From: Couchioplanes caeruleus
Lineage (GTDB): Bacteria > Actinomycetota > Actinomycetes > Mycobacteriales > Micromonosporaceae
Assembly: GCF_003751945.1 (NCBI RefSeq)
Contig: NZ_RJKL01000001.1
Span: forward strand, 4,464,001-4,528,000
Direction of reading: 5' to 3'
Length of the DNA stretch: 64,000 bases
Shown here one piece after another: positions 23,022 to 27,094 of this stretch. The notes under the pieces were generated by a model. That model was given only the letters and a program-made list of their open reading frames with translations. It was not told where the DNA came from and did not search any database. Position 1 is the first letter of the stretch, and each line of letters begins with the position of its first letter. The position numbers and the translations under genes are program-made.

Positions 23022-23561
23022 CTATCGGTCGAGCCGCCGGTAACGGCCGCGGAAGTGCAGCAACGGCTCCGGGCCGGCAGCGTCGCCGAAGACCACGCTC
23101 TCGATGGTGGCCTCGACTAGCATCGCCCATCCGTACGGGCGTTCCGCGTCGAAAAGGCAACCCGCCCAGGTCCCGGCCCGTGCGGGAACCGGGCCGAAGG
23201 AGGTGTCGACCCAGTCGCCGCTCGCGAAGAGCCCACCGGGTGCCGGCATGAGCCCGGCGAACTTGTCGGCGAGCTGCTGGTCGCCGGGGCCGAGCGGGGT
23301 GACGGCGAACCGCTTGGCGGCCCGGACCGCGTCGAAGAAGTCGCTCTCCTCGTCGACCAGGCCGAGCACCCGTCCGGGATCGCCGTCGGCGACGACCATG
23401 GAGGAAACGGTGAGCCCGGCCGGCCCGGGAGCCGTCCAGAGCGTGACGGGGGCGGCCAACCGGCCCCGCAGCCGTCGTATCGGTGACTTGTCCTGATCCG
23501 GGGTGGCGAAGGGATCGGTGGAGTGGATGCGGCCTCCGGGTTCAGGATTCACGTGAAACAT
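23022..23561 (-). CDS. Flavin reductase-like domain protein
   Basis: About 179 residues resembling the FMN-binding split-barrel of short-chain flavin reductases. Segments SPIRRLRGRLAAPVTLWTA, GLTVSSMVVADGDPGRVLGLV, FAVTPLGPGDQQLADKFAG and the His-Phe-Arg-Gly-Arg-Tyr end fit that fold. The enzyme would use FMN with NAD(P)H, or merely bind flavin. Its 5' end is close to the trpS leader on the other strand, so the promoters of the two genes share the same 30 bp. A later GTG at 23552 is an alternative start. I cannot link it to a pathway. Confidence 0.7.
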   Translation of the reverse strand: MFHVNPEPGGRIHSTDPFATPDQDKSPIRRLRGRLAAPVTLWTAPGPAGLTVSSMVVADGDPGRVLGLVDEESDFFDAVRAAKRFAVTPLGPGDQQLADKFAGLMPAPGGLFASGDWVDTSFGPVPARAGTWAGCLFDAERPYGWAMLVEATIESVVFGDAAGPEPLLHFRGRYRRLDR

Positions 23562-23573
23562 TCTGCCGCGGGG

Positions 23574-23579
23574 TACGCT
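23574..23579 (+). promoter_or_regulatory. Putative -10 box (TACGCT) of the trpS attenuator transcript
   Basis: TACGCT matches TANNNT and ends 7 nt before the GTG of the Trp-rich leader peptide. Transcription would therefore begin at the GTG, making the leader peptide itself a leaderless reading frame. Confidence 0.5.
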
Positions 23580-23586
23580 GGCCGAC

Positions 23587-23625
23587 GTGAATACCGCGCG
23601 CGTACAGAGCTGGTGGTCGTCCTAG
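23587..23625 (+). CDS. trpS leader peptide with tandem Trp codons
   Basis: A 12-residue reading frame from GTG 23587 to TAG 23623-23625 reads MNTARVQSWWSS. Codons 9 and 10 are consecutive TGG. It sits directly before an intrinsic terminator and 91 bp before trpS. Ribosome stalling at the two Trp codons under low charged tRNA-Trp would decide which RNA hairpin forms downstream. Such a peptide has no function other than its translation. This is too short for automatic gene calls and is recognised by its codons and surrounding RNA structures. Confidence 0.85.
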   Translation: MNTARVQSWWSS

Positions 23626-23680
23626 GGACGGCTACCCCATCGCGCTCGGGCCGTCCGTTCGGACGGCCCGTTCTTTGTTT
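23612..23680 (+). promoter_or_regulatory. Ribosome-mediated transcription attenuator of trpS
   Basis: Three mutually exclusive pairings can be drawn. Segment 1 (23612-23622, containing the Trp codons) pairs with segment 2 (23626-23636) over 11 positions including two G-U pairs, a pause hairpin. Segment 2 (GGACGGC, 23626-23632) can instead pair with segment 3 (GCCGTCC, 23650-23656) as antiterminator. Segment 3 (23648-23656) otherwise pairs with segment 4 (23661-23669) as the terminator, followed by a U-rich run. A ribosome stalled on TGG TGG covers segment 1 and frees segment 2, so transcription continues into trpS. The logic equals that of the E. coli trp leader. Confidence 0.85.
23648..23680 (+). 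terminator. Intrinsic terminator of the trpS leader
   Basis: GGGCCGTCC and GGACGGCCC form a perfect 9-bp stem with a GTTC loop, followed at once by GTTCTTTGTTT. A true U-rich tail is rare in this genome, which supports a regulated premature stop. A second copy of GGGCCGTCCG at 23686-23695 could compete for segment 4. Confidence 0.85.
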
Positions 23681-23715
23681 CCGCGGGGCCGTCCGGCGTC
23701 CCTGAGGAGACAGAG

Positions 23716-24741
23716 ATGATCACCATGACCGCCCCGCTCGAGGACCGGATCGCCGCGGCCCCGGGCGAATTCCGTGTGCTCACCGGCGACCGGCCCACCG
23801 GCCCACTGCACCTCGGCCACTACTTCGGCACCCTGCGCAACCGGATCGAGCTGCAGCGAAGCGGTGTCGACATGTTCGTGATCGTCGCGGACTACCAGGT
23901 GCTGACCGACCGGGACGTGGCGGACCGGCTCGTGGAGACCGTCGACGCTCTGGTGCTGGACTATCTGGCCGCCGGGCTGGACCCGGAGCGGGCCACGGTC
24001 TTCGCGCACAGCGCCGTGCCCGCCCTCAACCAGTTGCTGCTGCCTTTCCTGAGCCTGGTCACCGTGCCCGAGCTGCAGCGGAACCCCACCGTCAAGGACG
24101 AGATCCTGCACGCGCGGCAGCGCTCGGTCAGCGGGTTGATGTTCACCTACCCGGTGAATCAGGCCGCGGACATCCTCTTCTGCAAGGGGAATCTCGTGCC
24201 GGTCGGGCAGGACCAGTTGCCGCACGTCGAGGTCACGCGGACGGTCGCCCGGCGCTTCAACGAGCGCTATGGACAGGTCTTCCCGGTGCCGGAGGGGTTG
24301 CTCAGCACGGCCCCGGTGCTGGCCGGCACCGACGGCTGGAAGATGAGTAAGAGTCGTGACAACGCGATCGCGCTGTCCGCCACCCCGGACGAGACCGCGC
24401 GGCTGGTCAGGGCGGCGACCACCGACGCCGACCGGCACATCACGTACGACCCGGAGCGCCGGCCGGGCGTCTCCGGGCTCGTGCACCTCGCCGCCCTCTG
24501 CCTGGGCCGGGATCCGCACGACGTCGCCGCCGAGATCGGAGGTGCAGGGGCTGCCGCGCTCAAGCGCATGGTCACCGAGGCGGTGAACGAGTTCCTGGCT
24601 CCGCTGCGGGAGCGGCGGGCGGCGTACGCGAAGGATCCGGGTTTAGTCCGCTCCGTGCTCCGCACGGGCAACGCCCGCGCGAACGCGATCGCGGATCAGA
24701 CCCTGGGGGAGGTGCGGGAGGCGATGAGCACGGTCTACTGA
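23716..24741 (+). CDS. trpS: Tryptophanyl-tRNA synthetase, auxiliary-type
   Basis: A 341-residue class I synthetase that charges tRNA-Trp. The HIGH-equivalent motif is in TGDRPTGPLHLGHYFG and the second signature is GWKMSKSRDN. The usual bacterial form has G(I/V)QPSG...LGNYLGA at the first site; this one has the divergent GDRPTG...HYFGTLRNR, as in the second TrpRS that some actinomycetes carry (the indolmycin-resistant type known in Streptomyces). The ribosome-binding site GAGGAG lies 8 nt before ATG 23716; ATG 23725 is an alternative. Expression appears controlled by the upstream attenuator. Its stop overlaps the stop of the convergent ABC permease gene by 7 nt. Confidence 0.95.
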   Translation: MITMTAPLEDRIAAAPGEFRVLTGDRPTGPLHLGHYFGTLRNRIELQRSGVDMFVIVADYQVLTDRDVADRLVETVDALVLDYLAAGLDPERATVFAHSAVPALNQLLLPFLSLVTVPELQRNPTVKDEILHARQRSVSGLMFTYPVNQAADILFCKGNLVPVGQDQLPHVEVTRTVARRFNERYGQVFPVPEGLLSTAPVLAGTDGWKMSKSRDNAIALSATPDETARLVRAATTDADRHITYDPERRPGVSGLVHLAALCLGRDPHDVAAEIGGAGAAALKRMVTEAVNEFLAPLRERRAAYAKDPGLVRSVLRTGNARANAIADQTLGEVREAMSTVY

Positions 24742-26327
24742 GCGGCGCTCACCGTGGCCAGCAGTTCGGGCGCCCGCCTGTCCAGCAGGGGGCCGGCCAG
24801 GCGGAGCCCGATCATGTACGCCGCCGCGCCGTACGCCACTCCCACCGGGAGCCCTAGCCAGAGCCAGGCGTCGCCGATCAGCCCCGGGCCCAGATGCAGC
24901 GGCGCGGTGGCGAGCGCCGCGCCGACCAGCGCTGCGAGGCTCAGCAGTCCCTTCGCCATGCCGCCGCCGGAGGACATGGCGAACGGGTTGGTGGTGTCGG
25001 GCAGTGGGAACGCCGCGCGTACCGACATGGGCAGGACGATCGCGAGCCCGACCCCGTAGGCGGCCGCGACGGTGCCGAGCAGGGCGGGGATCTCCGCCGG
25101 CCGGCCCGTCAGCACGCCCACCAGCACGGTGATCGTCAGCAGGGACGGCCCGGCGTACACGGAGAACCCGGCGGCCCGCGACGCCAGCTCGACGCGCCCC
25201 GGGACGCCGGCCACGACGTTGGCCGCGTAGGCGCTGCCCTCGAAGCCGAACTGGTTGGCCAGGGTGACCGCCGCGAGCGCGCTGACGAAGGCCAGCGTGC
25301 CGGTCGGCGCGGTGGTGGAATCGCCGGCCACCGTCACGAACACGGGCAGGAAGACGCCGACCTCGGCGAAGATGATCAGGCTCGTGCGCCGCCGGGTCTC
25401 GCGCCACCAGTAGCGCATCTCGCGCGCGGTCAGCGCGCCGAAGCGGGTGGCGGGCAGCCAGCGCGGGACGAGTTCGGCCACCGGGCCGCGCCGCGACGCC
25501 ACCCGTTGCCGTCCGCTGCCCGCCGCGCCCAGCATGGCCCGCTCCGCCGTCGCGGACCACCACCACAGCAGCAGGCCGATCGATGCCGCCACCACGACGA
25601 ACTTGACGGGTACGGCCCAGGCGCGGCCCGCCGCCACGTCGATGCCCAGGCTGTACGGCGCGCCCAGCGGCGTCCATCCGACCACGTCGGCGACCGTGCC
25701 GACCAGGCCCCAGTCGGCGCATTCTGCCGCGGCGATCGCGGCGAACTGGAGCGGTCCGATCAGCGCCGCGGTGGCGGCGAGTAGCACCGTCGCCAGGTCC
25801 CTGGCCCGGCGGCTGCGCAACGCGGTGGAGAAGGCGCTGGTCACCGCCCGGCTGATCGCCGCGCAGAGGAGCAGTCCGGTCGCCACCCCGACCAGTTCGG
25901 TCAGCGCCGCGGCCGGGCCGCCGAGCCGGGCCGCCGTGTGCACCATGCCGAGGGTGCCGGCGAACGTGGCCAGGGCAGGCAGGCCGACCAGCGACGCCAC
26001 CAGCAGACCCTTGATCAACGCGGTGCGGCGCAGCGGCAGGAGCGCGAACCGGGCCGGGTCGAGCGACTCGTCCACGCCGAAGAACAGCAGCGGCAGGAAC
26101 ATCCAGCCCAGGACGATCAGCGCACCGCCGAGCGGCATGACGATCTCGGCCGCGCGTTGCTCCTCGATCATCCCCGGCAGGCTGAAGGCGGCGTATCCGG
26201 CGACTGCCCCGAAGACGGCGAACACCACGCCGAGCACGAACAGAACCATGCGCCAGCTCTGCGCGCGCAGGCCGTTGGCGGTCAGTCGCAGCTTCAGCCG
26301 GACGAAGTGGCGAACCCTCACAGCCAC
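24735..26327 (-). CDS. ABC transporter permease (large exporter type)
   Basis: A 530-residue polytopic membrane protein with about 12 hydrophobic segments, arranged as two halves. The start LKLRLTANGLR and the internal FGALTAREMRYWWRETRRRT are typical of actinobacterial ABC-2-like permeases paired with a single ATPase. It would form the membrane channel of an exporter whose cargo is unknown; antibiotics, lipids or peptides are all possible. The gene starts 10 bp inside the upstream ATPase gene, so the two are translated together. The 3' end converges on trpS with a 7-bp overlap. Confidence 0.85.
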   Translation of the reverse strand: MAVRVRHFVRLKLRLTANGLRAQSWRMVLFVLGVVFAVFGAVAGYAAFSLPGMIEEQRAAEIVMPLGGALIVLGWMFLPLLFFGVDESLDPARFALLPLRRTALIKGLLVASLVGLPALATFAGTLGMVHTAARLGGPAAALTELVGVATGLLLCAAISRAVTSAFSTALRSRRARDLATVLLAATAALIGPLQFAAIAAAECADWGLVGTVADVVGWTPLGAPYSLGIDVAAGRAWAVPVKFVVVAASIGLLLWWWSATAERAMLGAAGSGRQRVASRRGPVAELVPRWLPATRFGALTAREMRYWWRETRRRTSLIIFAEVGVFLPVFVTVAGDSTTAPTGTLAFVSALAAVTLANQFGFEGSAYAANVVAGVPGRVELASRAAGFSVYAGPSLLTITVLVGVLTGRPAEIPALLGTVAAAYGVGLAIVLPMSVRAAFPLPDTTNPFAMSSGGGMAKGLLSLAALVGAALATAPLHLGPGLIGDAWLWLGLPVGVAYGAAAYMIGLRLAGPLLDRRAPELLATVSAAQ

Positions 26328-27094
26328 GCGAGTTCCGAGCCGGTCGCGGTACGCCCGCCGACCACCTCGACGAACACGTCTTCCAGCGAGCGCTCGCCGC
26401 GGACCTCGGCCAGGATGCCGCGCACCCGGATGGCGCCGTCCGCCATGATCGCGACGTGGCTGCAGAGCCGCTCGACGACCGCCATGACGTGGCTCGAGAA
26501 GACCACGGTGCCGCCGCCGGTCACGTACCGGTGCAGGATGTCGCGGATCAGGGCGGCGGAGACCGGGTCGACGGCCTCGAACGGCTCGTCCAGCACCAGC
26601 AGCCGCGGCGCGTGCAGCAGCGCGCAGGCGAGGCCGATCTTCTTCTTCATGCCGGCGGAGTAGTCGACCACCAGCGTGCGGTTGCCGGTGCCCAGCTCCA
26701 GCACGTCCATCAGCTCGTTGCTACGCCGGTCGACCTCGCCGGCGTCCATGCCGCGCAGCAGCCCGTGGTACGCGAGCAGTTCGGTGCCGGTCAGCCGGTC
26801 GAAGAGGCGTACGCCGTCGGGCAGGACGCCGATCCGGGCCTTGGCCGCGACCGGGTCGGTCCACACGTCGGCCCCGAGGATCCGGGCCTGTCCCGCGTCG
26901 GGCCGCAGTAGGCCGACCGCCATGGACAGTGTCGTGGTCTTGCCGGCGCCGTTCGGGCCGAGCAGGCCGAAGAAGGATCCCGCCGGGACTTCCAGATCAA
27001 TTCCGGCAACCGCGACCTTTGTATCGAATCGCTTTACCAGCCCGTGCAACGCCAGCGCGGGTTCGGCATGCGAGCGCTGGTGGGGGACGGACAT
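26318..27094 (-). CDS. ABC transporter ATP-binding protein
   Basis: A 258-residue ATPase subunit. Walker A is GPNGAGKTTT, the signature motif is DYSAGMKKKIGLA, Walker B is LLVLDEPFEAVDP, and the switch His is in VFSSHVM. It resembles CcmA-type ATPases of drug and lipid exporters. It overlaps the permease gene by 10 bp and would energise it. The signature has S-A-G-M instead of LSGGQ, which is common in this exporter class. TAGGTT lies 8 nt before ATG 27094, and no ribosome-binding site is obvious. A large hairpin separates it from the upstream secreted-protein gene. Confidence 0.93.
   Translation of the reverse strand: MSVPHQRSHAEPALALHGLVKRFDTKVAVAGIDLEVPAGSFFGLLGPNGAGKTTTLSMAVGLLRPDAGQARILGADVWTDPVAAKARIGVLPDGVRLFDRLTGTELLAYHGLLRGMDAGEVDRRSNELMDVLELGTGNRTLVVDYSAGMKKKIGLACALLHAPRLLVLDEPFEAVDPVSAALIRDILHRYVTGGGTVVFSSHVMAVVERLCSHVAIMADGAIRVRGILAEVRGERSLEDVFVEVVGGRTATGSELAWL

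Follow-up and report, generated by a model that had tools for sequence, protein, structure and literature searches.

The window analysed here, a stretch of 64,000 nucleotides from Couchioplanes caeruleus (contig NZ_RJKL01000001.1, positions 4,464,001 to 4,528,000 of the forward strand), carries in front of a tryptophanyl-tRNA synthetase (TrpRS) gene, trpS, what we read, with a probability of about 0.93, as a ribosome-mediated transcription attenuator of the Escherichia coli trp-leader type, having a leaderless leader peptide and preceding an auxiliary, probably analogue-tolerant, TrpRS. In the proposed mechanism, transcription would start at or beside the GTG of the leader peptide and the ribosome would begin at the 5' end without a Shine-Dalgarno (SD) site. 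When Trp-tRNA is ample, the ribosome would reach the leader TAG in the loop of a hairpin between segments 1 and 2 (1:2) and cover segment 2, and the pairing of segments 3 and 4 (3:4) would terminate transcription. When charged tRNA-Trp is scarce, because of starvation or inhibition of the housekeeping TrpRS, the ribosome would stall in segment 1, at the TGG TGG codons; pairing of segment 2 with segment 3 (2:3) would then block the terminator, and trpS would be transcribed.

The elements of this switch are collected in Table 1. The sequence-only reading of this DNA had described a leader with tandem Trp codons, a pause hairpin (1:2), an antiterminator (2:3) and a terminator (3:4) ending in a U-rich tail, and all of them were found where it had placed them. 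Hairpins 1:2 and 3:4 are both present in the minimum free energy (MFE) and centroid folds; the loop of the former contains the leader TAG, and the hairpin overlaps the regulatory Trp codons. The fold energy of the region 23574-23730 corresponds to z = -4.04, with none of 200 shuffles equally stable, and a terminator scan of 23400-23760 returned a 10-bp hairpin with a T-tail, plus an overlapping 5-bp version, compared with a mean of 0.1 sites in shuffles. TACGCT is the sole TANNNT on the plus strand within 23500-23760, and between the leader and trpS there are zero TANNNT boxes on that strand. The 22-nt core running from TGG TGG to GGACGGC is found a single time in the whole 8.43-Mb genome when as many as 3 mismatches are tolerated; a 14-nt core with 2 mismatches gave 1 match in the window vs. 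1.31 expected, which is not significant alone.

Table 1. Features of the trpS leader region and of the controlled gene (window coordinates).
Feature	Position	Strand	Remarks
-10 box TACGCT	23574-23579	+	7 nt 5' of the leader GTG; predicted leaderless transcript
Leader peptide ORF, (V/M)NTARVQSWWSS*, i.e. VNTARVQSWWSS*	23587-23625 (GTG to TAG)	+	12 codons; homologous leaders in relatives
Tandem TGG TGG in the leader ORF	23611-23616	+	Read in the sequence
Segment 1	23612-23622	+	Holds most of both Trp codons; pairs with segment 2 (MFE and centroid)
Segment 2	23626-23636	+	23626-23633 able to pair with 23649-23656 of segment 3 (antiterminator)
Segment 3, terminator 5' arm	23647-23656	+	Fold, covariation, terminator scan
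Segment 4, terminator 3' arm	23661-23670	+	Fold, covariation, terminator scan
U-rich tail, TTCTTTGTTT	23671-23680	+	Sequence, terminator scan; directly 3' of the terminator (23647-23670)
Segment 5, GGGCCGTCCG	23686-23695	+	Repeats 23648-23657 exactly; could pair with segment 4
Predicted hairpin over the trpS SD site GAGGAGA (23704-23710)	23672-23716	+	MFE and centroid; shuffle controls
Auxiliary trpS, controlled gene	23716-24741	+	341 aa; TIGR00233, PF00579

Relatives were gathered from three sources, namely a draw of 200 genomes from the family (matches at E<=1e-60 in 59 of them, and 27 genomes besides the own one with a trpS relative at least 60% identical), 67 genomes of the genus, and a named collection, from which the best 80 of 573 confirmed stretches were taken, the nearest relative among these 80 being Couchioplanes caeruleus subsp. 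azureus (93%). The 111 loci analysed are the closest relatives found and not a random sample; other TrpRS (L002, L119-L128), more distant relatives (L030, L031, L118) and duplicates (L032-L034) were left out. When a leader was defined as a short ORF of 9-16 codons containing Trp, with no promoter required, one was present upstream of trpS in 104 of the 111 loci. The leaderless-type start, which had been proposed from the TACGCT box close to the GTG, turned out to be conserved: a TANNNT ends 6-7 nt before the leader start in 102/104 leaders, vs. 53/15204 (0.35%) of the control ATG/GTG, i.e., other such triplets on the same strand of the same loci, although the loci are related and the binomial figure for this spacing is therefore not an independent-sample probability. 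An SD-like sequence lies 5' of the leader start in only 3 of the 104. The Trp pattern is WW in 89 leaders, WWW in 2, WR (TGG followed by an Arg codon) in 11 and other in 2, and the stop codon is TAG in 94. Among the best 80 of 573 stretches, the genera with such leaders include Streptomyces, Kitasatospora, Actinomadura, Streptosporangium, Nonomuraea, Saccharopolyspora and Nocardioides. One pick among the 104, that of L014, is spurious, the true leader being MMSTRSWRPS, also WR; the same-genus WR leaders are found among L009-L014, L112 and L113 and resemble the published S. lividans trpL2 (see below).

Covariation was counted in an alignment (A3) of 54 of the 97 usable leaders, hand-picked for spread and with near-duplicates omitted. 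In the 3:4 helix 96.1% of cells are paired, and 5 of its 10 pairs show changes on both sides; in the 2:3 helix 97.4% of cells are paired, and both sides have changed in 20 cells. One of the 2:3 column pairs reads G-C in 35 of the 54 leaders and A-U in 18. In either helix, 0/500 shuffles reach the observed number of paired cells, the observed number of cells changed on both sides or the observed covariation score; slid controls have 22-60% of cells paired, and the number of further pair types seen in 3:4 is reached by 3/500 shuffles. A search for covariance upstream of trpS homologues had been suggested as a check of the switch, and stems 2:3 and 3:4 do covary; the mutual exclusion of the segments in the style of the E. 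coli trp leader, as also claimed from the sequence, is conserved across actinobacterial auxiliary trpS genes. Because segments 2 and 4 compete for segment 3 and both pairings have been kept through sequence changes, the attenuator is most likely a switch under selection. The conserved leader, the -10 spacing and the covariation make chance an untenable explanation.

Several observations weigh against the attenuator. The most divergent leaders (e.g., L018, L019, L020, L022, L024, L026, L027, L110) were omitted from A3, which flatters the percentages given above. The number of 2:3 pairs changed on both sides is reached by 14/500 shuffles, and the measure of further pair types gives no support for 2:3, because 478/500 shuffles reach the observed value. 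Hairpin 1:2 comes from the MFE and centroid folds, covariation having been counted for 2:3 and 3:4 alone because a bulge distinguishes the two main subfamilies of leaders. In 7 of the 111 loci (L015, L028, L117, L075, L093, L100, L101) no leader was found, L100 having only 288 nt of upstream sequence. The adjacent pair of Trp codons is not indispensable, because the 11 WR leaders have a TGG followed by Arg; L029, counted among them, reads W-R-W and has CACGAT in place of TANNNT, so that it is without a -10 box. Finally, a scan for E. coli-type promoters found zero promoters, and the attenuator of Couchioplanes caeruleus is a prediction from sequence.

Since the 3:4 hairpin by itself resembles an intrinsic terminator, it could be a plain terminator serving an upstream or read-through transcript, in which case the Trp codons would stand there by accident. 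This explanation is already contradicted by the comparative data and is very improbable: the covariation of 2:3 has no role in such a terminator, the Trp leader and its -10 box are conserved together in 102/104 cases, and the neighbouring upstream gene is divergent. Just as improbable is a T-box, a riboswitch or a TRAP-like protein-binding leader sensing tRNA or tryptophan directly, devices which would have no need for a conserved translated leader with Trp codons; Rfam gave 0 matches at gathering score in the 64-kb window (T-box, riboswitch and leader families), and on 23400-23900, searched up to E=10, it returned three unrelated matches (wcaG, suhB and sR32; E 0.28-1.3), all of which score below the gathering thresholds and were regarded as chance matches.

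A different alternative retains the attenuator and adds to it. The post-terminator repeat and the SD hairpin suggest a second, translational layer, a suggestion that is partly supported. In such a two-layer control, which we consider unlikely, the hairpin at 23672-23716 would also hide the SD site, and six segments would form a ladder, 1:2/3:4/5:6 vs. 2:3/4:5; with 2:3 formed, the free segment 4 would pair with segment 5 and open the SD hairpin, and transcription and translation would be switched together. Somewhat less likely still is the fuller version in which, in this genus, the attenuator has grown from four to six segments, and one ribosome stalled on a leaderless leader would govern a resistance-type synthetase at the levels of transcription and of translation initiation alike, via the second segment-3 copy (23686-23695). 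The loci used for these tests come from a terminator set that required a -10 box (103/111 loci), of which 98 had a hairpin core, 95 a start codon, and 93 entered the SD and 4:5 tests, 16 of them from the same genus; L007 was dropped from the latter (its mismatched terminator was missed by the hairpin finder), and L116 and L117 were not included. Automatic terminator calls are doubtful or wrong in some loci (e.g., L019, L020, L026, L027, L038, L049, L084, L106, L110) and feed the SD, 4:5 and alignment-input results, so that all numbers given for the 77 loci that are not in the same-genus set, some of which have misplaced terminators, are approximate.

In favour of the second layer, the 5' part of the SD hairpin contains a 10-nt exact repeat of segment-3 sequence, and the longest pairing between segment 4 and the spacer exceeds that of shuffles (p<=0.05) in 11/16 same-genus loci, but in just 15/77 of the others, and it is not significant in L008, L009, L012, L114 and L115. 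A block GGG-N-(C/T)-G-(T/C)-CC is kept in 14/14 same-genus rows of alignment A5, while its flanks vary. The SD site is less accessible than in shuffles (0.18 vs. 0.32 in the 16 same-genus loci, 0.18 vs. 0.35 in the 77 others); however, the pyrimidine-rich tail explains much of the SD pairing, the null falling to 0.23 and 0.29, respectively, once the first 12 nt are fixed. When 2:3 is imposed on the fold, the SD site gains at least 0.2 in accessibility in 5/16 loci (L001, L004, L006, L013, L114), but shifts by 0.1 or less in the remaining 11, and all the loci are related, so that the tests are not independent. Because the results of shuffling, of the tail control and of enforcing 2:3 are mixed, freeing of the SD site by 4:5 is not established; the post-terminator repeat is nonetheless the most testable new point of this analysis. 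Upstream of trpS in L112 and L113, the post-terminator element near the SD site seems to be tandemly duplicated (GGGCCGTCC and GGGCTGTCC copies).

As for the gene that the putative attenuator would control, its family matches identify the product as a TrpRS. The nearest solved structures by sequence are 1yi8 and 2a4m, whose chains are named TrpRS or TrpRS II, the latter being the name of 2a4m; we take both to be Deinococcus proteins, consistently with the titles of the papers found. The window trpS is regarded as auxiliary because a second TrpRS, 39% identical to it, is encoded elsewhere in the same genome, where no WW or WR leader precedes it. In the alignment, the residue matching the His of the D-x-H motif is Gln in 111/111 proteins, that of the window included, and His in the second TrpRS of the genome. 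This position is presumably H43 of the Bacillus enzyme. In Bacillus TrpRS, H43 has been implicated in indolmycin sensitivity, and H43N gives resistance (PMC4899734). Judging from the replacement of this His, here by Gln, the window TrpRS is probably tolerant to tryptophan analogues and may be resistant to indolmycin.

The same kind of leader may serve more than one auxiliary enzyme. Among the 67 same-genus genomes, auxiliary types were sorted by the author from the match list at E<=1e-40: the window type occurs in 19, a different type, ~37-42% identical to the window TrpRS, in ~44, and a third type in 1, and 3 genomes have a single housekeeping-like match; at this threshold no genome among the 67 has both main auxiliary types. 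Leaderless-type leaders of the form (M/V)R...WW(L/S)P*, with TANNNT 6-7 nt upstream, precede the different type in 15/15 of the loci inspected (L133-L147, out of ~44), and a GC-rich inverted repeat, a terminator-type hairpin, follows the leader and is present in the minimum-energy fold in 13/15 (not in L144 and L147). At the H43 position these 15 proteins all retain His, in contrast to the Gln of the window type. For the third type and its relatives from another genus (L118, L030, L031) no leader of this kind was found within 400 nt. In a single genus, two diverged types of auxiliary TrpRS bear the same kind of leader, a pattern less documented than the kind itself. In the own genome, a trpE-family (chorismate-binding) gene, L132, has a WW leader, MYAQPSMWWPADPAATPSRA*, that lies ~447 nt 5' of where the match begins; with TAAGCT 8 nt ahead of the leader and with 1:2-type and terminator-type hairpins, this is a probable second trp attenuator; no WW leader was found for the three other trpE-family matches in this genome.

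The window attenuator belongs to a kind already known from Streptomyces, as the sequence-only reading had noted in agreement with published work. The E. coli trp leader, with which the window leader shares the four-segment logic and the tandem Trp codons, has a ribosome-binding site and a 5' untranslated region (UTR) and controls a biosynthetic operon, whereas the window leader is predicted to start at the 5' end and to control a synthetase. In Streptomyces, the gene treated in a 2010 study of such control is said to be trpRS1 of S. coelicolor. That study (Vecchione and Sello, 2010; J Bacteriol 192:3565), by its title as cited in PMC4787780, concerns an auxiliary antibiotic-resistant TrpRS gene under ribosome-mediated attenuation, and the likeness, compared by title only, lies in an auxiliary TrpRS gene with ribosome-mediated transcriptional attenuation in another genus. 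Classical attenuators had been predicted earlier before trp operons and before trpS2 of S. avermitilis (Seliverstov, 2005; PMC1262725); the latter is likewise a predicted attenuator in front of a second trpS, obtained computationally, and the 1:2 hairpin and a leaderless start are not discussed in the parts of that text consulted. An RNA-seq and transcription-start study of 2021 described S. lividans trpL2 (MMTRTCTQLWRAA), a leaderless trp leader peptide of 13 residues before the trpS SLIV_21110 (PMC8079986); it has a single Trp codon followed by Arg and, according to that paper, no U-rich stretch, whereas the window leader has TGG TGG and a U-rich tail. The Trp-then-Arg order of trpL2 resembles the WR forms among the leaders surveyed. 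SGR_3809 of S. griseus is an indolmycin-resistant auxiliary TrpRS (reviewed in PMC6804068), comparable to the window enzyme as a second, auxiliary actinomycete TrpRS by description; the passages of the review consulted say nothing of its regulation. PMC4833913 cites a conference paper of 2015 that deals with Trp attenuators of Actinobacteria. No published report, judged by title or by the start of the abstract, was found of the conservation of the leader across genera or of the two-type pattern.

The window attenuator and its relatives would extend leaderless-type, ribosome-mediated control of auxiliary TrpRS beyond Streptomyces, to an Actinoplanes-like genus and further genera of actinobacteria, with the same kind of switch apparently common to two diverged auxiliary TrpRS types in one genus. 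This makes the leader usable as a marker of synthetase genes that may respond to antibiotics of the tryptophan-analogue type; it also offers a natural system for asking what effect leaderless initiation has on attenuation.

Two further observations concern the flanks of the trpS locus. On the minus strand, a 530-aa ORF (24735-26327), for which no Pfam or NCBIfam match was found, adjoins an ABC ATPase gene (26318-27094), and a similar ORF seems, by eye, to end just past trpS in several relatives. On the other side, a perfect palindrome, TTCACGTGAA, lies at 23548-23557, 16 nt 5' of the leader -10 box and within the first codons of a divergent flavin-reductase-like gene (23022-23561, minus strand, PF01613); it occupies the same position in some relatives, e.g., L003, L004 and L005.
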